From Acidimicrobiales bacterium (GTDB taxonomy: Bacteria; Actinomycetota; Acidimicrobiia; Acidimicrobiales; Acidimicrobilacustridaceae), in NCBI GenBank assembly GCA_018401565.1, contig JAGYKS010000039.1, forward strand, positions 124,001 through 188,000: a stretch of DNA of 64,000 nt, given 5' to 3'. The position numbers were made by a program, and so were the translations under genes. Below are positions 1 through 21,164 of the stretch, one piece after another. Each line of letters begins with the position of its first letter. Within the stretch, counting starts at the first letter, position 1. The notes below the pieces were generated by a model that saw only the letters and a program-made list of their open reading frames with translations, ran no database searches and was not told the DNA's origin.

Positions 1-113
1 TTCCAGTCCTCGATGATGAAGCGCCGGTACTCGCCGCGATCGGCGAACCAACGGGACTTCCAATCGGTGGTGATACCCAGGCGGAAGCCGTAGGGGTTGA
101 CTTTCTGGCCCAT
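1..113 (-). CDS. rpsC: 30S ribosomal protein S3 (uS3), N-terminal part only
   Basis: Small-subunit protein at the mRNA entry channel. Only the first 37 or so codons are inside the window. They read [14 protein letters not shown] and continue with DWKSRWFAD, the classic S3 amino terminus. The ATG overlaps the TGA of rplV by one base (TGATG), which suggests translational coupling in the S10 operon. The rest of the gene lies beyond position 1. Confidence 0.95.
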
Positions 114-835
114 CAGGCGTCGCCCTTCTTATCGGTGTCGTCGGCAGGGCTCTCGTCGGCAGCACTGTCGTCGGCGGGTTCCGCCTCAGCGACTGCCTCG
201 TCGCTGGAAGCCTCGTCAGTCACGACCTCATCAGTCACGACCTCATCAGTCACGACCTCATCAGTCACGACCTCATCGGTCACGACCTCGTCAGTCACGA
301 CCTCGTCACCTTCGTGCTCGTGGTCATGATCGTGTTCTTCACGCTCGGCGGTGCGCTCGGCCTTGGCCGCACGGCTGCGCGAGACGCGCTCACGACGGGC
401 GGCGGCAGCAGCCGAGGCGGTGCCAGCGCGGCCACCGGCTTCTTCACGAGCCCGGATCTTTTCGAGCTCGGCCTCGTCCATGCGGGCCACGATCACCGTG
501 ATGTGACAGGTTCGCTTGTTGATGCGGCTGGCACGGCCCCGGGCACGGGGACGGAAGCGCTTGAGCGTTGGGCCCTCATCGGCGTAACAGGCCACAACGG
601 CCAGTTCGTCGGCGGCGAGAGAGTCATTGTGCTCGGCGTTGGCAACGGCGGAGTCCAGCACCTTGCGAATGGTGGTGGCCACGTCGCGCTCGGTGCCGTC
701 GAGGATCTCCAGGGCGTCGGCCACGGACTCGTTGCGGATCAGGTTCAGCACCATGCGGGCCTTGGAGGCCGACACACGGGCGTAGCGGACCTGGGCACGG
801 GTGCCGGGTCGCTCGTTTGTCTTTGCAGCAGTCAT
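113..835 (-). CDS. rplV: 50S ribosomal protein L22 (uL22) with long acidic repeat tail
   Basis: Large-subunit protein that lines the peptide exit tunnel. Residues 1 to about 120 are a normal L22 core, including [15 protein letters not shown] and the [20 protein letters not shown] loop region. The protein is 240 aa, about twice the usual length. The extra C-terminal part has an Ala/Arg/Glu-rich stretch, a His/Asp/Glu patch ([10 protein letters not shown]), six perfect DEVVT pentapeptides (about residues 179-208), and an acidic end. The core ends near the ribosome surface, so the tail probably projects into solvent; its role is unknown. The start overlaps the rpsS stop by 4 bases. Codon use of the core resembles its neighbours; the tail is encoded by a 15-bp minisatellite. 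Confidence 0.96.
211..300 (-). repeat. 15-bp tandem repeat, six copies, inside rplV
   Basis: Six head-to-tail 15-base units, on the plus strand cctcrtcagtcacga with one g variant in unit 5. They encode the DEVVT pentapeptides of the L22 tail. The period is a multiple of three, so copy-number change would not shift the frame. Units are almost identical, which points to recent expansion. Confidence 0.95.
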
Positions 836-1110
836 CGGCGTCCCTTGCGCTCCTGGCCAGCGTGGAACTTGAACGTCCGGGTGGGTGCGAACTCACCGAG
901 CTTGTGTCCCACCATGGATTCGGTGATGTACACCGGTACGTGCTTGCGCCCATCGTGCACCGCCATGGTGTGACCGACCATGTCGGGGATGATGGTGGAT
1001 CGGCGCGACCAGGTCTTGATCACGCGCTTTTCACCCGACTCGTTCTGGGCGTCCACCTTGGCCAACAGGTGGTCGTCAACGAAGGGGCCTTTTTTGAGAC
1101 TGCGAGGCAT
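832..1110 (-). CDS. rpsS: 30S ribosomal protein S19 (uS19)
   Basis: Small-subunit head protein that pairs with S13 near the A-site finger. It is 92 aa, the usual length. It starts [15 protein letters not shown] and contains [13 protein letters not shown] and [19 protein letters not shown], all diagnostic of uS19. ATG start. It lies 13 bases downstream of the rplB stop and overlaps the rplV start by 4 bases, in the normal S10-operon order L2-S19-L22-S3. Confidence 0.98.
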
Positions 1111-1123
1111 CGATTCCTACTTC

Positions 1124-1951
1124 CTACCGGCGCGCTTTGCGACGGCGGACGATCATCTTCTGGGACGACTTCTTCTTGTTGCGGGTACGGCCCTCGGGCT
1201 TGCCCCACGGCGACACCGGATGGCGGCCACCTGAGGTCTTGCCCTCGCCACCACCATGAGGATGGTCGACCGGGTTCATCACGACACCACGGGACTGCGG
1301 GCGAACGCCCTTCCAGCGGTTACGCCCCGCCTTGCCGATCTTGATCAGCTCGGCCTGGGCGTTGCCCACCGTGCCCACCGTGGCTCGACAATCGATGGGT
1401 ACACGACGCATCTCGCTGCTGGGCAGGCGCACGGTGGCGTAGTCGCCCTCCTTGGCCACGAGCTGGATCGACGAACCAGCGGAGCGGGCCATCTTGCCCC
1501 CGCCACCGGGACGCAACTCAACGTTGTGAATGGTGGTACCCACCGGGATGTAGCGCATTGGCAGCGCACAGCCCGGACGGATGTCAGCGTCACGACCCGA
1601 CCGGACCCGGTCACCGACGTTCATGCCCTCGGCAGCCAGGATGTAGGCCTTTTCGCCGTCGAGGTAATGGAGCAGGGCGATGCGGGCGTTGCGGTTGGGG
1701 TCGTACTCGATGGCAGCGACCTTGGCCTCAAAGTCGTCCTTGACCCGACGGAAGTCGACGATGCGGTACTGGCGCTTGTGGCCACCACCACGATGCCGGG
1801 ACGTCTTGCGGCCGTGGGCGTTGCGACCACCGGTGCGGGGCCGCGGTGCCAGCAGGCTCTTTTCCGGTGTGGTCTTGGTGATCTCGGCGAAGTCGGAGAC
1901 GGTCTGGAACCGACGGCCGGGGCTTGTGGGTTTGCGCTTGCGTACTGCCAT
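1124..1951 (-). CDS. rplB: 50S ribosomal protein L2 (uL2)
   Basis: Large-subunit protein needed for subunit association and peptidyl-transferase activity. It is 275 aa, the family length, beginning [14 protein letters not shown] at the ATG 1951-1949. The conserved C-terminal block around [16 protein letters not shown] is present and includes the functionally critical His. The reading frame stays open upstream into rplW only because of the indel in that gene, so the long merged frame is not a real fusion. The start lies 5 bases after the rplW stop. Confidence 0.98.
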
Positions 1952-1956
1952 GTCAG

Positions 1957-2248
1957 TCAGGCCTCGAACATGTCGATGGTCTCGCCGGGGGCGAGAGTCA
2001 CGTAGGCCCGCTTGACGTCGGGCCGCTTGCCGAATGTGGGGGAACGCCGGTTCCGCTTGCGCTTGCCCTTTTTGTTCAGGGTGTTGACCGAGAGCACCTT
2101 CACCTTGAACAGGGTCTCGTACCGCGCTGCGGATCTCGGGCTTGCTGGCATCGGGATGAACACGGAACGTGTACACCCCGGTGTCCTGCAGTGCGTAGGT
2201 CTTCTCACTCACCTCGGGGGCGATGACCACGTCGTGTGGGTACTTCAT
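1957..2248 (-). CDS. rplW: 50S ribosomal protein L23 (uL23), one-base frameshift
   Basis: Tunnel-exit protein and docking site for trigger factor and SRP. The N-terminal part ([20 protein letters not shown], then SAV) is in one frame. The C-terminal part ([19 protein letters not shown] to DMFEA) is in the next. Removing one base at about 2120 (GCG GTA CGA restored to GCG GTC GAG) gives a continuous 96-aa L23 of normal length. The start overlaps the rplD stop by 4 bases. An essential single-copy gene is unlikely to be broken, so a sequence error is the best reading. Confidence 0.93.
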
Positions 2249-2997
2249 GCGTCGTCCTCCGCAGGGGTGGCAGCATCGTCAGCTTCGGTGTCGCCGGTGT
2301 CGGCAACGTCGGCAACGTCGACAGCGGGCTCGGGCTCGGTGGCAGCAGGAGCGGGCTCGGTGGCAGCAGGAGCGGCCGACGAAACCACCTCGGCACCGGG
2401 CAGTGCGTCAGAGGTGAACACGACCCAGTCGCTCACCAACACGTCGTAGGCGTTGAGCTGATCCGACTCCAGCAGGTGCACCTCGGGAAGGTTGCGGAAG
2501 CTGAGCGCCGACACGGCATCATCCCGACGCAGCACCATCAGCACCCGACCACCGACGCCCAGGGCGGCGAGGGCTTCACGGCCCGACTTGGTGCTGGGTG
2601 CTTCAAATCCCCAGTTGTCGATCACGACGACCTTGCCATCAGCGGCACGGTCTGACAGCGCCGATCGCAGGGCGAGGCGCACCATCTTCTTGGGGGTGCG
2701 CTGGGCGTAGGAACGGGGCTTCGGTCCAAGGGCCACACCACCACCACGCCACTGCGGCGAGCGGATCGAACCCTGTCGGGCACGGCCGGTGCCCTTCTGA
2801 CGCCACGGCTTGGCACCACCACCGCGGACCTCGGCCCGGGTCTTGGTGGACTGCGTGCCCGAACGGCGTGCGGCCAGCTGGGCCGTCACCACCTGGTGCA
2901 TCACGGCAACGTTGGGCTCGATCCCGAACCACTCGTCGTTGAGTTCAACAGAGCCGGACTTCTTGCCGGCCGGGGTACGAACATCGATGCTTGTCAT
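2245..2997 (-). CDS. rplD: 50S ribosomal protein L4 (uL4) with acidic C-terminal tail
   Basis: Large-subunit protein with a tunnel loop; in some bacteria it autoregulates the S10 operon. Residues 1 to about 207 are a full L4, including [20 protein letters not shown] (about 53-72), the tunnel-loop signature. About 43 extra residues follow, rich in Ala, Glu, Asp and Pro ([13 protein letters not shown], then [10 protein letters not shown]). Total 250 aa against about 205-215 usually. The start shares one base with the rplC stop (TGATG). Confidence 0.97.
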
Positions 2998-3659
2998 CAG
3001 TCAGCCTCCCCCGCTGCCACGACGACTGCGCCCTTGATGGCGTTGCGGACCACAACCCGGCCGCCACGGGGGCCGGGAACCGATCCACGCACCAGCAGAA
3101 GGCCAGCTTCGGCATCAACCTCGACGACCTTCAGGTTCATGGTGGTGACCTTGCCGCCACCCATGCGCCCAGCCATCTTCTTTCCACGGAACACCCGAGC
3201 GGGCGTGGCGCACGCACCGACGGAGCCGGGCTTGCGGTGGACCCGGTGGGTACCGTGCGACGCCTTCTGGCCCGAGAAGTTGTGACGCTTCATCGTGCCG
3301 GCGAAGCCCTTGCCACGACTCACCGAAGTGACGTCGACAAGCTGCCCCTCGGCGAAGACATCAGCCTCGATGTGCTGGCCGACCTCGTAACCCGAGATGT
3401 CGTCGAGGCGCAGCTCCACGAGCTTCACCCCGGGATCCACACCGGCGGCGTCGTAGTGACCGGCCGTGGGGCGGTTCACCTTGCGGGGGTCGCGGGTTCC
3501 ATAGGTGACCTGCAGGGCGCCGTAACCGTCACGCTCGACGGTCTTGATCTGCACCACACGCACCGCAGGAACGCGCAGCACGGTGACGGGGACGACCTTG
3601 TCGTCCTGCCACATCTGGGTCATTCCGACCTTTACGGCCACAAGAGCTGTGTTCGCCAT
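2997..3659 (-). CDS. rplC: 50S ribosomal protein L3 (uL3)
   Basis: Early-assembly large-subunit protein reaching the peptidyl-transferase centre. It is 220 aa with the signatures [15 protein letters not shown] and [23 protein letters not shown] start at 3659. It normally follows rpsJ directly. Here 1229 bases and an opposite-strand gene separate the two, so rplC probably begins its own transcription unit from the candidate promoter at 3837-3866. Confidence 0.97.
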
Positions 3660-3713
3660 CTCTGAAGCGTTCTTCCTGTTTCCTGGGTGAGCAGCCGAGG
3701 CCGTTCACACCAA

Positions 3714-3743
3714 CGCTCCGCACGGGACAGGCCCGCCGGAGCG
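3714..3743 (-). other. stem-loop in the rplC leader
   Basis: A perfect 7-bp stem, CGCTCCG pairing with CGGAGCG, encloses a second CGGG/CCCG stem with a 5-base loop. It lies about 55-85 bases upstream of the rplC start, inside the transcript expected from the candidate promoter. It could be an autoregulatory leader element for a ribosomal protein, but no specific family is recognised. Confidence 0.45.
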
Positions 3744-3836
3744 CTCGGTTGGTTTCGCCGTGGGGTACCTGTGGACATGCCAAGGCCGTCACGGACATCG
3801 GTTAGCGGCCGGATGAGTCCGGCGCACGGAGAGATC

Positions 3837-3866
3837 ACCCTAGCGGGACCCGGCCCGACAGTCCAA
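3837..3866 (-). promoter_or_regulatory. candidate promoter for the rplC-rplD-rplW-rplB operon
   Basis: On the minus strand TTGGAC (3866-3861) is followed after 18 bases by TAGGGT (3842-3837), a good actinobacterial -35/-10 pair. It lies in the 343-base gene-free stretch 3660-4002 between the divergent rplC and TMEM175-like genes and would give a leader of about 170 bases. A separate promoter is expected here because the usual upstream gene, rpsJ, has been cut off. Confidence 0.5.
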
Positions 3867-3989
3867 CTCGCCCTGGGCGTGGGGTGCCAACGCCTCCAAC
3901 AATGGGTTCCGGCCCCACCACCGGGCTCCCACATGATCACCCCCTGCGCCCGCCACGCAGGCACCCACGGCGATTCATGGCGGGGACCC

Positions 3990-3995
3990 TAGGAT
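3990..3995 (+). promoter_or_regulatory. -10 box for leaderless start of the TMEM175-like gene
   Basis: TAGGAT sits exactly 7 bases upstream of the ATG at 4003. That spacing puts the transcription start at or next to the A of ATG, the arrangement of leaderless actinobacterial genes. I saw no convincing -35 box. Confidence 0.4.
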
Positions 3996-4002
3996 CTCCG
4001 GC

Positions 4003-4707
4003 ATGGCGTCGGACCCCCAACACGATCCGTCGGATCGGCAGAAGTCAGCGGGGTCCCCTTCCCCGCCGCCGTCCCCGACCCCGCGCCACCGGGGCCCATT
4101 TTCTGGCACTGCCGGAGTTGGAACCGAACGCGTTGAGGCGTTCAGCGATGGGGTCTATGCCATCGCCATCACCTTGCTGGTCCTCAACTTTGCCATCGCC
4201 ACCGACCTGACTGACGACCAGGTGTGGCCGGCGATCACCGATCAGGCGCCCCAACTTCTGTCGGCTGCCCTGAGTTTCGCCGTGATCGGGGTGTACTGGG
4301 CCGGGCACAACACCTTGTTCCGCCGGATAGAGCACTGCAGTGGCTCGCTGACCGTGGTGAATCTGCTCCACCTCGCCACCATCGTGTTCCTTCCCTTCCC
4401 CACCCTGGTGCTGGCCGAATACGCCGACAGCTTCGCCGGAGTGTCGTTCTACGCCGCCACGCTGGCGCTCACCGGGTTTAGTGCAGCACTGGTCACGTGG
4501 ACGGCATGGCGCCAGGGGCTCATGGCATCGTCGGTTGACCGCCAGTGGATTGAGGCCCGCCTCATCGGGCTGTGCAGCACACCCATGGTGTTCGTGCTGT
4601 CCATCGCCGTGGCCTCGGTGAACCCCACCGCCGCCACCTACTTCTGGCTGTTTGCACTGGTGGCAGACCGGGTGGTGACAAAGCTGGTGTCGCTCATCGG
4701 GCGCTGA
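4003..4707 (+). CDS. TMEM175/DUF1211-family potassium channel-like membrane protein
   Basis: Predicted integral membrane protein of 234 aa with a Pro/Ser-rich cytoplasmic N-terminus (about residues 1-40) and about six hydrophobic helices. Helix 1 carries RVEAFSDGVYAIAITLLVL, the FSD-containing motif of TMEM175/DUF1211. YWAGHNTLFRRIE and NLLHLATIVFLPFPTLVL are further family blocks. Bacterial relatives are tetrameric potassium-permeable channels; conductance here is inferred from family only. It lies on the opposite strand between rpsJ and rplC, an unusual insertion site. The upstream TAGGAT suggests a leaderless mRNA. Confidence 0.85.
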   Translation: MASDPQHDPSDRQKSAGSPSPPPSPTPRHRGPFSGTAGVGTERVEAFSDGVYAIAITLLVLNFAIATDLTDDQVWPAITDQAPQLLSAALSFAVIGVYWAGHNTLFRRIEHCSGSLTVVNLLHLATIVFLPFPTLVLAEYADSFAGVSFYAATLALTGFSAALVTWTAWRQGLMASSVDRQWIEARLIGLCSTPMVFVLSIAVASVNPTAATYFWLFALVADRVVTKLVSLIGR

Positions 4708-4727
4708 GGCACGGCGCTGGTCACGAC

Positions 4728-4791
4728 CAGCTTGTGCCGACAACGACCCCAGCTTGTGCCGACAACGACCGCAGCTTGTGCCGACAACGAC
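4728..4791. repeat. three tandem 22-bp repeats with an internal dyad
   Basis: The 20-base unit CAGCTTGTGCCGACAACGAC occurs at 4728, 4750 and 4772, so the period is 22 bases, about two helical turns. Each unit contains the dyad TTGT-gccg-ACAA. The array lies between the convergent ends of the TMEM175-like gene and rpsJ. It looks like a cooperative protein-binding array or a mobile intergenic repeat; it is not coding. Confidence 0.85.
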
Positions 4792-4888
4792 AGGAACCCG
4801 ATCCCCAAGGACCGGGTCCGAGCCATCAATTCAGTGTCAGTACTTCGCTTGGTGTCAGCCCGGCACGCATGCCGGCCAACAGCGGCCA

Positions 4889-5208
4889 CTAGGCCTGCTG
4901 GAGCTTGATCTCAACGTCCACGCCAGCGGGGAGGTCAAGGCGCTGCAGCGAGTCCACCGTCTTGGCTGACGGCTCGAGGATGTCGATCAACCGCTTGTGG
5001 ATCCGCATCTCGAAATGCTCCCGGGAGTCCTTGTCCTTGTGGGGTGAGCGAACCACCGTGTAACGGTGACGCTCAGTGGGCAAGGGACCGGCCCGCGAAT
5101 GGTTGCGTTGGTTCGCACCACGGTCTCGACGATCTTCTTCGTCGACTGATCGATCAGCTCGTGGTCGTACGCCTTGAGCCGGATTCGGATCTTCTGCTTC
5201 TCAGCCAT
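4889..5208 (-). CDS. rpsJ: 30S ribosomal protein S10 (uS10/NusE), one-base frameshift
   Basis: Ribosomal head protein that also acts in antitermination with NusB and NusG. It starts [20 protein letters not shown]. At RGPVP the frame breaks and resumes one base off as [20 protein letters not shown], ending EIKLQQA. Adding one base to a C run at about 5083-5085 restores 106 continuous residues. An error in the sequence is more likely than loss of an essential gene. It is the last gene of the str block (tuf copy 1 upstream) instead of the first gene before rplC. Confidence 0.92.
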
Positions 5209-5336
5209 AATCGTCGCTTCCTGGTGCCGGGCCAACACTGTCGTGGTGACCCGGGATCCACTGGGTTGTCAATGTTCGCATCCCCGCTGGGGATGATGCC
5301 GACGGATGCCGACAGGGATTCGGTTGTTTGCGGTGG

Positions 5337-6533
5337 TCAGTCGATGATCTTGGTGACGCGGCCGGCGCCCACGGTGCGGCCACCCTCACGGATGGCGAAA
5401 CGCAGACCCTCGTCCATGGCGATCGGAGCAATCAACTCCACCGTCATGGCCGTGTTGTCACCCGGCATACACATCTCCAGTACCGTCAGGCAACGTCAAC
5501 CGAACCCGTCACATCAGTGGTCCGGAAGTAAAACTGCGGGCGGTACCCGTCGAAGAACGGCTTGTGACGGCCGCCCTCCTCCTTCGTCAACACATACACC
5601 TGACCCTCAAACTGGGTATGCGGCGTAATCGAACCCGGCTTACACAACACCTGACCACGCTCAACATCTTCACTGCTTGGTGCCACGCAACAACGCACCC
5701 ACGTTGTCACCCGCCTGACCCTGATCCAACAACTTACGGAACATCTCCACACCCGTACACGTCGTCTTTTGCGTGTCTTTGAGACCAATGATCTCAATCT
5801 CGTCAGAAGTGTTCACCACACCTGCTCGATACGACCTCGTCACCACCGTCCCACGACCAGTAATCGTGAACACATCCTCAATCGGCATCAAAAACGGCTT
5901 ATCCAAATCACGCTCAGGCTCAGGAACCGACGCATCACACGCCGCCATCAACTCCATGATCTGCGCCGTGCGCACGCCGCATCCCCCTCAAGCGCCTTCA
6001 ACGCCGACACCTTCACCACCGGAATGTCATCACCAGGGAACTCATACTCGCTCAACAACTCGCGAACCTCAAGCTCCACCAAATCCAACAACTCCTCATC
6101 ATCCACCATGTCCGACTTATTCAAAGCCACCACAATGTAAGGAACACCCACCTGACGAGCCAACAACACATGCTCACGCGTCTGCGGCATCGGACCATCA
6201 GTAGCCGCCACCACCAAAATCGCCCCATCCACCTGAGCCGCACCCGTAATCATGTTCTTGATGTAATCCGCATGACCCGGCATATCAACATGCGCATAAT
6301 GACGATTCTCCGTCTCATACTCAATATGAGCAATATTGATCGTGATACCACGCTCACGCTCCTCAGGCGCCTTATCAATATCCGCAAACTGCGTAAACGA
6401 CGTCGACGAAGGATCAGCATCAGCCAACACCTTGGTCATCGCCGCCGTCAACGTCGTCTTCCCATGATCAATATGACCCATCGTGCCCAACATTCGCATG
6501 GGGCTTGTTCCGCTCAAACTTCTCACGTGCCAT
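5337..6533 (-). pseudogene. tuf: tuf copy 1: EF-Tu gene broken by seven indels
   Basis: Second gene for elongation factor Tu, in the standard str position after fusA. Compared with the intact copy at 25016-26206 it has seven indel events: +1 near 5478, +1 near 5497, +1 near 5672, -1 near 5822, +1 near 5834, +2 near 5970 and +1 near 6490. The net +6 agrees with 1197 versus 1191 bases. Between the indels the protein is well conserved and most differences are silent. It is therefore either a very recent pseudogene or a functional gene damaged by sequence error, which is common in repeated genes. The last 141 coding bases (5337-5477) are identical to copy 2, a sign of gene conversion. T-ending codons are common in the remainder, unlike in neighbouring fusA. 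Confidence 0.85.
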
Positions 6534-6629
6534 GGGAGGCGCTCCTCTTTATTCCTGATGATGACGTACTGGCTGGATGGTGTTGGACTGACTACTGGAC
6601 GACGGCGGGTCCCGCCGGGCACTGCGAAA

Positions 6630-8711
6630 CTATTCCCCACGGACCCGGGTGACGATCTCTTCCTGGACGTTGGACGGAGCCGCCTGGTACGAGTCGAACT
6701 GCATGGTGTAGTTCGCCCGGCCCTGGGTCTTCGACCGAAGATCGGTAGCGTAACCGAACATGCGGTCCAGCGGAACCTGCGCCCGCACAACCTGGGCGTT
6801 GCCCCGCTGCTCGGTTCCCTCCAGCTTGCCCCGGCGTGACGACAGGTCACCCATGACGTCGCCGAGGTAATCGTCGGGGGTCACAACCTCAACCTGCATG
6901 ATCGGCTCCAGAAGCACCGGCTTGGCCTTGCGGGCAGCCTCCTTGAACACCATGGAGCCGGCGATCTTGAACGCCATTTCCGAGGAGTCCACGTCGTGGT
7001 ACTTGCCGTCGTGCAGGGTGGCCCGGATGTCCACGGTGGGATAGCCGGCCAGAACGCCCGAGGTCATGGCCTCCTGGATGCCGGCATCGATGGAGGGGAT
7101 GTACTCCTTGGGGATGCGGCCGCCGGTGATCTTGTCCACGAACTCGTAGCCCCCACCGGGCCCGGTGGACTCGATGGTCACGGTGACCTCGGCGTACTGG
7201 CCCGAACCACCGGTCTGCTTTTTGTGGGTGTAGGTCACCGACTCGGCGGCCTTGGTCACCGTCTCACGGTAGGCAACCTGCGGCTTGCCGACGGTGGCGT
7301 CCACCTTGAACTCGCGCAGCATGCGGTCGACCAGCACCTCGAGGTGGAGCTCGCCCATGCCCGAGATCACGGTCTGGCCGGTCTCTTCGTCGCTGCGGAT
7401 CCGGAAGGTGGGGTCCTCTTCGGACAGCGACATCAGGGCCTTGGACATCTTGTCCTGGTCGGCCTTGGTCTTGGGCTCCACGGCCACGTGGATGACGGGC
7501 TCGGGGAACACGAGCTGTTCGAGCACGATGGGGTGGGCCGGGTCGCACAGGGTGTCACCGGTACGGGTGTTCTTGAGTCCGATGGCGGCCACGATGTCGC
7601 CGGCGTAGACCCGATCCACGTCCTGCTGGGCGTTGGCGTGCATCTCAAGCAGGCGACCCATGCGTTCCTTGTCACCCGAACGCACGTTGAGCACCTGCTC
7701 ACCCTGGGCCAGTGACCCCGAGTACACCCGGAAGTACGTGAGCTTGCCCACGTGAGGGGCGCTCATGATCTTGAAGGCAAGGGCGGCGAACGGGGCGTCG
7801 TCGGCGGGCTCGCGCTCAAGGGGCTCGCCCGAGCGGGTGTTCTCGCCAACAACGGCTCCCACGTCGAGAGGCGACGGCAGGTAGGACACCACGGCGTCGA
7901 GCAGGGGCTGGACGCCCTTGTTCTTGAATGCCGACCCGGTCAGCACCGGCACGAACTCGCCGGCCAGCGTGCCGGCCCGCAGCGCCGCCCGCAGTTCGTC
8001 TTCGGTGATTTCTTCTTCTTCGAGGAACTTCACCAGCAGCGTCTCGTCGGACGACGCCACCGTCTCGAGCAGGGCATTGCGGTACGTCTCGGCCTTGTCA
8101 GCGAGTTCGGCGGGAATGTCCACCACGTCCCACTCGGCGCCGAGATCCTCGTTGCGCCAGACCAGCGCCTTCATGGTGACCAGGTCGACCACACCGGCGA
8201 ACTCGCTCTCGGAGCCGATGGGCAACTGCAACACTGCCGGGACTGCACCCAGCCGATCCACGATGGAGTCCACGGCGCCGTAGAAGTCGGCTCCCATGCG
8301 GTCCATCTTGTTGATGAAGCAGATGCGGGGCACGCCGTACTTGTTGGCCTGTCGCCACACGGTCTCGGACTGCGGCTCCACGCCGGCCACACCGTCGAAC
8401 ACCGCCACGGCACCGTCGAGCACACGCAGGGACCGCTCGACCTCCACGGTGAAGTCCACGTGGCCCGGGGTGTCGATGATGTTGATGCGGTGATCGTCCC
8501 ACTCGCACGTGGTGGCGGCCGACGTGATGGTGATGCCGCGTTCCTGCTCCTGCGCCATCCAGTCCATGGTGGCCGCGCCCTCGTGAACCTCACCGATCTT
8601 GTAGCTCTTGCCGGTGTAGTAGAGGATTCGCTCGGTGGTGGTGGTCTTGCCCGCGTCGATATGGGCCATGATGCCGATATTGCGGGTCTTGGCGAGTGAG
8701 TGCCTGGCCAT
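6630..8711 (-). CDS. fusA: elongation factor G
   Basis: Translocation GTPase, 693 aa, the usual length. G1 is [19 protein letters not shown] (about residues 16-34), followed by the switch-I block [12 protein letters not shown]3 DTPGHVDFT and G4 [10 protein letters not shown]. Domain IV contains the [20 protein letters not shown] block. ATG start at 8711. It lies between rpsG and tuf copy 1 in the classic str order S12-S7-EF-G-EF-Tu. Codons are strongly GC-ending, in contrast to tuf. Confidence 0.98.
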
Positions 8712-8782
8712 CGTCTTTGTCTTCCGTGTGGTGGGGGGCTAGCGGATGGAAATGGGAGTACGTCGGCACGAGGCCGCCGGGC

Positions 8783-9253
8783 TCACCAGCGGTAGTGGGC
8801 GAAGGCCTTGTTGGACTCGGCCATCTTGTGGAGGTCTTCACGACGCTTCACCGAGGCACCAACACTGTTGGAGGCATCAAGGATCTCGTTGGCCAGACGC
8901 TCGGCCATGCTCTTTTCCCGACGCTGGCGGGAGAAACCCACGATCCAGCGGACGGCCAGAGTGCTGGACCGACGGGGACGAACCTCAACGGGCACCTGGT
9001 AGGTGGCGCCACCGACTCGACGGCTGCGCACCTCGAGCTGGGGCTTCACGTTCTCGATGGCCTTTTTCAGCGTGGCGACGGGCTCCGACCCGGTGCGGGT
9101 CTCGACCAGCGCCAGGGCGTCGTACACGATCTTCTCGGCGGTGGAGCGCTTGCCGCGCTGAAGGACCTTGTTGACGATCTGGGTGACAAGCACCGACCGA
9201 TAAATCGGATCGGGGGCGAGTTCACGGCGGGGTGCTGGACCCTTGCGAGGCAC
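8783..9253 (-). CDS. rpsG: 30S ribosomal protein S7 (uS7)
   Basis: Primary 16S-binding assembly protein of the 30S head. It is 156 aa starting [10 protein letters not shown], with [21 protein letters not shown] and the C-terminal [21 protein letters not shown], all diagnostic. The start codon is GTG, two bases after the rpsL stop, so the two are likely coupled. Confidence 0.98.
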
Positions 9254-9255
9254 GT

Positions 9256-9626
9256 TCAGCCTTCTTTCTTGGCGCCGTAGCGGCTACGGGCCTGCTTGCG
9301 GTCACGGACACCGGAGGTGTCGAGCGCACCACGGACGATCTTGTATCGGACACCAGGGAGGTCCTTCACACGGCCACCACGGACCAGCACGATGGAGTGC
9401 TCCTGCAGGTTGTGACCCTCACCGGGAATGTAGGCGGTCACCTCGACGCCACTGGTGAGACGCACACGGGCCACCTTGCGCAGCGCCGAGTTCGGCTTCT
9501 TGGGGGTGTTGGTGTACACGCGGGTACACACCCCCGACGCTGGGGCGATCCCTTGAGCGCCGGCGTCTTGGCCTTCTTCGGCTTTGTCTGACGGCCCTTG
9601 CGGACCAGCTGCTGGATGGTGGGCAC
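9256..9626 (-). CDS. rpsL: 30S ribosomal protein S12 (uS12), one-base frameshift
   Basis: Decoding-centre protein and classical streptomycin target. It starts at GTG (9626) preceded by AAAGGA 7 bases away, giving [20 protein letters not shown]. At PQRRG the frame breaks and resumes as [20 protein letters not shown]. Restoring one base in the C run 9531-9535 gives a normal 123-aa S12. The streptomycin-sensitive motifs TPKKPNS and [11 protein letters not shown] are unchanged. The 219 bases upstream, to the rpoC end, probably hold the str promoter, but I could not pick one with confidence. Confidence 0.93.
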
Positions 9627-9845
9627 GCGATGTCCTTTGCGTTGTTGCTGTAGTGGTGCTCGGTATGGCCGTCACCGGCCGGTACCGACCGGGTGTGTCA
9701 CCCGGTGCACCCGACTCCTGGAGGGCGGTTGCACCGCTACCTCACCGGATGCCGGACCGATACCACCCATGCGGGCGGACACGTGACCGGCTTCTGAGGC
9801 TAACGGTGCGGGGGTGACGGTGGCAAGCCGTGATGTGGACGGGGA

Positions 9846-13995
<4,150 letters not shown>

Positions 13996-14006
13996 GATGT
14001 TTTCCC

Positions 14007-21071: not shown

Positions 21072-21134
21072 CAGTTGACAACCACCGGTAGGCAGTTGAC
21101 AACCACCGGTAGGCAGTTGACGACCACCGGTGGG
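21072..21134. repeat. three tandem 21-bp repeats upstream of rplJL
   Basis: Units start at 21072, 21093 and 21114. The core CAGTTGACAACCACCGG is exact in the first two; the third has one a-to-g change in it. Each unit contains the dyad GTTG-A-CAAC and an ACCGGT palindrome, repeated at two helical turns. The array lies between the rplA stop and the L10 leader, where the rplJL promoter is expected. Confidence 0.85.
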
Positions 21135-21164
21135 CGTCTTCGACTGGCGACCGCAGGTCAGCGG

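Follow-up and report, generated by a model that had tools for sequence, protein, structure and literature searches.

Leaders through which ribosomal proteins regulate their own synthesis are usually found at the head of the operon concerned, and mimicry of the rRNA site of the protein is frequent, though not universal, among them. The E. coli-type leader of the S10 operon sits before rpsJ in Gammaproteobacteria. To our knowledge, the junction between rpsJ and rplC is regarded as nearly invariant in bacteria. L4 controls the S10 operon of E. coli through its leader (PMC10931766), an L4 leader candidate lies upstream of rplC-rplD-rplW-rplB in Archaeoglobi (PMC7247131), a Firmicutes S10 leader is named in the same source, and the rpsJ motif of Peptostreptococcaceae lies upstream of rpsJ (PMC11109978).

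In this work, we analyse a stretch of 64,000 nucleotides from an Acidimicrobiales bacterium (hereafter, the window), in which rpsJ and rplC are separated and a structured leader candidate lies before rplC. Like the E. coli S10/L4 leader, it is a structured 5' leader that heads the S10 operon, although control by a protein of the operon is here only proposed; it differs in its position before rplC, in having no detected likeness to 23S rRNA and in having no match in Rfam. The Archaeoglobi candidate, compared here by its position, also lies directly before rplC but is archaeal. The Peptostreptococcaceae motif and the Firmicutes leader are also S10-operon leaders found by comparative analysis, but in another phylum. 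In the PMC literature, which covers subscription journals only in small part, we found neither a leader before rplC in actinobacteria nor a report of the split, and the leader is apparently unlisted.

Gene order and contents of the rpsJ-rplC gap

The minus strand of the window carries, in order, rpsL, rpsG, fusA, tuf and rpsJ, and then rplC, rplD, rplW, rplB, rpsS and rplV; genes other than rplC and rpsJ were named by eye from their translations. The last gene of the str unit, rpsJ (about 4889-5238), is an ORF in two pieces that encodes S10, and its 3' part matches Pfam Ribosomal_S10 (E = 1.5e-22). The first gene of the shortened S10 operon is rplC (2997-3659), an ORF that encodes ribosomal protein L3 (Ribosomal_L3, E = 3.7e-17). 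Between the two, the first-pass annotation had described a TMEM175-like gene on the plus strand and a repeat array, and both are borne out by the ORFs, the Pfam matches and a repeat scan. As a separate observation, the products of rplV and rplD have long, acidic and repetitive C-terminal tails (113-320 and 2245-2400, respectively), and the tail of rplV is encoded by a 15-nt tandem repeat with 6.5 copies at 211-308.

A protein search found homologues of rplC in 50 and of rpsJ in 42 of 61 genomes, the source genome being included in the 61. A misassembly at 3660-4890, which would have undone the claim of a split, is unlikely, and we rejected it as the cause of the gene order: both G001, a genome of the same genus whose rplC is 88% identical, and G006, from another genus of the same family, carry this layout, down to the orientation of the channel gene. 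In addition, CAMAQM010000002.1 (L131) has the same locus as G001. This entry is titled Bifidobacterium breve MAG GH-07nov19-52; its locus is of the Acidimicrobiia type, and the title is evidently wrong. The window assembly does contain frameshifts in rpsJ (near 5083-5110), tuf (5340-6540) and rplW (2100-2170), all of which are expected to be essential. Since relatives carry unbroken copies of these three genes, the frameshifts look like sequencing or indel errors of the assembly; fusA and rplC are unbroken despite the frameshifts nearby.

The TMEM175-family gene (4003-4707, plus strand; an ORF of 234 aa) points towards rpsJ (convergent) and away from rplC (divergent), and is the only gene of its family in the window genome. 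As in prokaryotic TMEM175 potassium channels, its product matches the full length of the domain (PF06736, model positions 1-88 of 88; E = 4.4e-25, 88.4 bits with a cut-off of 25) and contains the FSD motif; potassium conductance is here only predicted, and the gene is unusual solely in its genomic setting. A first contig scan with the TMEM175 protein as the query gave no match. The family is present in 18 of the 61 genomes, at the rpsJ-rplC site only in G000, G001 and G006, and the channel proteins of G001 and G006 are 52% identical to that of the window. When the TMEM175 tree was examined for a single vertical insertion at the site, these three site copies and four copies from genus g12 made up one supported clade of seven (100/99), and the site copies by themselves did not form one group (two changes on the tree).

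The gap between the convergent genes contains a 3 x 22-nt tandem repeat (4727-4792). The 20-nt core of this repeat, with up to two mismatches allowed, was found nowhere else in the window genome and is absent from G001, G002 and G006. Elsewhere in the window, a second array of 3 x 21 nt (CAGTTGACAACCACCGGTAGG, at 21072-21135) resembles it in form.

For a comparison of gap contents, the rplC-rpsJ region was taken from all 49 relatives with rplC. In these loci, the two genes are between about 200 nt and several kilobases apart, and the passenger genes vary by genus. Besides TMEM175, a chosen subset of 28 gap ORFs was scanned, and 18 of these have a Pfam match at 1e-5; the matches include short-chain dehydrogenases, glutamate dehydrogenase, SpoIIAA-like, luciferase-like monooxygenase, carboxylesterase, AI-2E transporter, 2OG-Fe(II) oxygenase, PGA_cap, solute-binding protein and trypsin-PDZ. 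Two further features of these gaps were seen. Loci of genus g12 (L055:2033-2874, and L046, L047, L051 and L056) contain two small, adjacent opposite-strand ORFs, of 143 and 148 aa, which resemble a toxin-antitoxin pair by eye, neither having a Pfam match at 1e-5. In L039 and L045 (G009 and G016, of one genus), long direct repeats are apparent in the gap from the translations.

The leader RNA and its predicted promoter

Upstream of rplC, on the minus strand, lies a conserved RNA core with two hairpins (3703-3805). A covariance model, R1, which was built from sequences of the order alone, matches the window at exactly these positions (77.7 bits, E = 2.2e-16), the window being a member of its training set. 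The core consists of helix P1 (3790-3794 with 3758-3762), an inner helix P1b (3782-3785 with 3768-3771, of whose four pairs three form in the window) and the G+C-rich hairpin P2 (3732-3744 with 3713-3726). In most leaders, the stretch joining the P1/P1b part to P2 is GCACAACCGA. RNAfold of single sequences places a variable 5' hairpin, P0 (3806-3832), between the predicted transcription start and the core, and a hairpin of this type follows the promoter in most such folds.

Covariation was assessed on an alignment drawn from 50 leaders (49 loci and the window), of which 38 were kept after leaving out L054 and L067, which are cut by contig ends, and L076, which is without the 5' motif, and after removing duplicates and near-duplicates (more than 93% alike and of the same length). 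RNAalifold predicted 21 pairs for these distinct leaders, with compensatory changes in 12. In the structure of 23 pairs named above, 94.8% of the cells are paired, and two-sided changes occur in 13 pairs and 86 cells; 500 shuffles had a mean of 18.4 such cells (sd 5.3) and none reached 86, and slid controls had 16-21. P1 and P1b are paired in 97.8% and 97.3% of the cells, with two-sided changes in eight of their ten pairs, and P2 is paired in 92.7%, with two-sided changes in five of 13. The 11 R1 matches from outside the order for which loci were returned (10 of them distinct), when fitted to R1, have 95.0% pairing and 17 two-sided cells versus 5.4 in shuffles. When folded alone, the window leader is not significant or unusual (z = -1.32), and the case for the leader is made by covariation.

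Searches of Rfam 15 found no leader family at the leader, either in positions 1-14000 of the window (E up to 5) or in the loci of eight relatives (E up to 1). Attenuation at P2 is not evident because this hairpin, which ends well upstream of the rplC start codon, has no U-run, and a terminator scan at the window locus gave none above chance. As for mimicry of rRNA, none was found: five leader segments were compared with one 23S gene at the sequence level, and no stretch resembled it beyond the range of the shuffles.

The conserved promoter predicted upstream of the leader has in the window a -35 element TTGGAC (3861-3866) and, 18 nt from it, a -10 element TAGGGT (3837-3842), both on the minus strand, which would place the transcription start near 3830. 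The first-pass annotation had proposed a promoter with this start together with a leader hairpin, and comparison of the 38 leader sequences supports the proposal. Upstream of the core, TTG-N19..23-TANNNT occurs in 29 of the 38 (shuffle mean 0.6, maximum 3), and 26 have TANNNT with a YKTG element after it (shuffle mean 1.8, maximum 5); note that both patterns were picked after inspection of the sequences. Enrichment is confined to the -35/-10 pair and to a -10 element at a larger, variable distance; a -10 element that is close to the core at a constant spacing is not clearly enriched (5/38; shuffle mean 2.4, maximum 8). A scan of the window with the sigma-70 consensus found no promoter, because the -35 element is TTGG-like.

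Distribution of the leader and of the split

R1 matches 87 of 198 genomes of the class, nearly all of them once per genome, and finds the leader in families of the class beyond its training order. In 84 of the 87, the leader is followed on its own strand and contig by rplC, at a distance of 24-203 nt; the other three loci are broken by contig ends or have no listed rplC row. Two secondary leader rows at contig ends (G045 and G082) did not enter the count separately. Of 246 genomes drawn from the phylum, 18 matched, all within this order or class.

A set of 80 named rplC loci, which overlaps with the genomes above, gave 41 matches. Where the title of a matched locus names a group, this is Acidimicrobiia, Acidimicrobiales, Acidimicrobiaceae, Ilumatobacter(aceae) or Microthrix(aceae), the exception being the mistitled Bifidobacterium entry. 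In 38 of the 39 unmatched loci (Streptomyces, Nocardia, Mycobacterium, Agromyces and others), rpsJ precedes rplC by 14-65 nt. The remaining one, L148, is a MAG titled Acidimicrobiaceae with a gap of 251 nt and no R1 match; this gap (L148:3040-3300) is A+T-rich and possibly holds a divergent leader.

The leader and the split go together. Where the leader and both genes are on one contig and strand, the rpsJ-rplC gap is at least 201 nt in 73 of 73 genomes: it is at most 402 nt in 33, 481 and 640 nt in two, and 884-14,087 nt in 38. In seven other leader genomes, rpsJ is on another contig. Genomes without the leader have a gap of 3-117 nt in 42 of 45 among the matches listed, these 45 being a subset in which the reduced family f35 is under-represented (about 25 of its rpsJ rows were omitted) and from which the rplC rows of G224, G208, G204, G157 and G216 are absent. 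The three exceptions are G223 (195 nt), G097 (223 nt) and G175 (354 nt), and a search with R1 found no leader in them even with filters off. Under the same setting, the match in G073, which belongs to the order, is no more than weak (14.7 bits, E = 0.053).

On a tree of 63 rplC rows, hand-picked for spread from those available, the leader label needs two changes, versus 18.2 in shuffles. Groups on this tree are moderately supported and the leader rows are not one strict clade; the outgroup falls inside the class sample, which limits what the tree says on the root and on a single origin of the leader. G175 and G223 are placed among the leader-bearing rows, a position that suggests that these genomes lost the leader or that it decayed in them. 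We also considered a move of the leader from a place upstream of rpsJ and rejected it: with filters off, none was found there in 12 loci with joined genes (L115-L126), of which L124 extends just 43 nt beyond rpsJ, and L121 gave one weak match on the opposite strand (11.5 bits, E = 0.34). Judged from these sequence comparisons, the split is ancient and shared by most of the class, which record titles identify as Acidimicrobiia, and the class shows both the joined and the split state.

Proposed regulation and alternatives

We consider it fairly probable that the S10 operon was rewired at the level of the class, and that one of the ribosomal proteins encoded by the rplC operon controls its own synthesis through the leader. 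In an ancestor shared by most of the class, a promoter and a structured leader would have originated, or become established, at the rpsJ-rplC junction. The str unit would from then on have ended with rpsJ, and rplC would have headed a separate unit, rplC-rplD-rplW-rplB-rpsS-rplV and onward. A ribosomal protein made by this unit would then bind the two-hairpin RNA, upon which expression of the whole unit would fall. The first candidates for the ligand would be L3, which the first gene encodes, and L4, which regulates the S10 operon in E. coli. That the RNA regulates and that its ligand is a ribosomal protein we infer from its place in the presumed 5' UTR of rplC, its covariation and its single place per genome; a conserved, covarying structure directly upstream of a ribosomal protein gene was found in 84 of the 87 genomes.

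Since rpsJ would no longer need to stay joined to rplC, the stretch from the end of rpsJ to the rplC promoter may tolerate insertions and serve as a landing site in which genes come and go, TMEM175 being the passenger in the genus of the window. We lean slightly towards the stronger statement that the leader is specific to the class and, unlike those listed, is a new autoregulatory switch, and that the junction turned into an insertion hotspot with many unrelated uptakes. Several observations count against the explanation: wide gaps without a detectable leader (G223, G097, G175 and L148), the weak match in G073, the absence of a U-run at P2 and of any detected sequence likeness to 23S rRNA, and the moderate support of the tree groups, in which the leader rows are not one strict clade.

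The first-pass annotation had instead attributed the separation to the channel gene, whose insertion would have broken up the operon and made the evolution of a new promoter necessary in this genus. The gene does lie between rpsJ and rplC in G000, G001 and G006, and the g12 copies, which are the four nearest to it in the family, are on other contigs without a match to rpsJ, rplC or tuf. However, throughout the class the split, the leader and the promoter are found in genomes whose gap has no TMEM175, a gene that 3 of 61 genomes carry there, and in 33 of the 73 leader genomes the gap of at most 402 nt is too small for the gene; we therefore rejected it as the cause of the split and give this account hardly any weight. 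Since lineages that have no TMEM175 there possess the leader and promoter too, the channel gene most probably arrived later, into a boundary already present. What holds of the earlier description is that rpsJ ends the str unit and that rplC opens a unit with its own predicted promoter and leader hairpin. The promoter and leader, which it took to be new, are common to most of the class and not particular to the window genome, and the synteny in relatives, which it had proposed as a check, indicates that the split predates the channel gene.

Two other readings concern the function of the RNA. The leader might serve something other than a ribosomal protein, by sensing a small molecule, ppGpp, a growth signal or an RNase, or by acting as a stability or start-site element. 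Sequence comparison found no mimicry of 23S rRNA, and the core ends 24-203 nt before rplC, so that a ribosome binding site is not simply covered, both of which fit such a role; its occurrence once in nearly every matched genome and before rplC in 84 of 87, as is usual for autoregulatory leaders of ribosomal proteins, makes this reading unlikely, though it deserves some weight. It is less plausible still that the hairpins are a terminator or boundary element that insulates the remainder of the S10 operon from the str unit or from passengers. Such an element would account for the strength and G+C-richness of P2 and for the coincidence of the leader with the unit boundary, but P2 is not followed by a U-run, P1 and P1b covary as well, the window locus has no terminator above chance, and the element lies downstream of the conserved promoter, within the presumed 5' UTR of rplC.

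With autoregulation by a ribosomal protein as the preferred reading, the locus adds a candidate ribosomal protein leader in a phylum with few characterised ones. The gene insertions in the gap look like a consequence of the boundary and not its cause. A single class that contains both states, in which the split tracks one structured RNA, offers a natural experiment on the cohesion of ribosomal operons.
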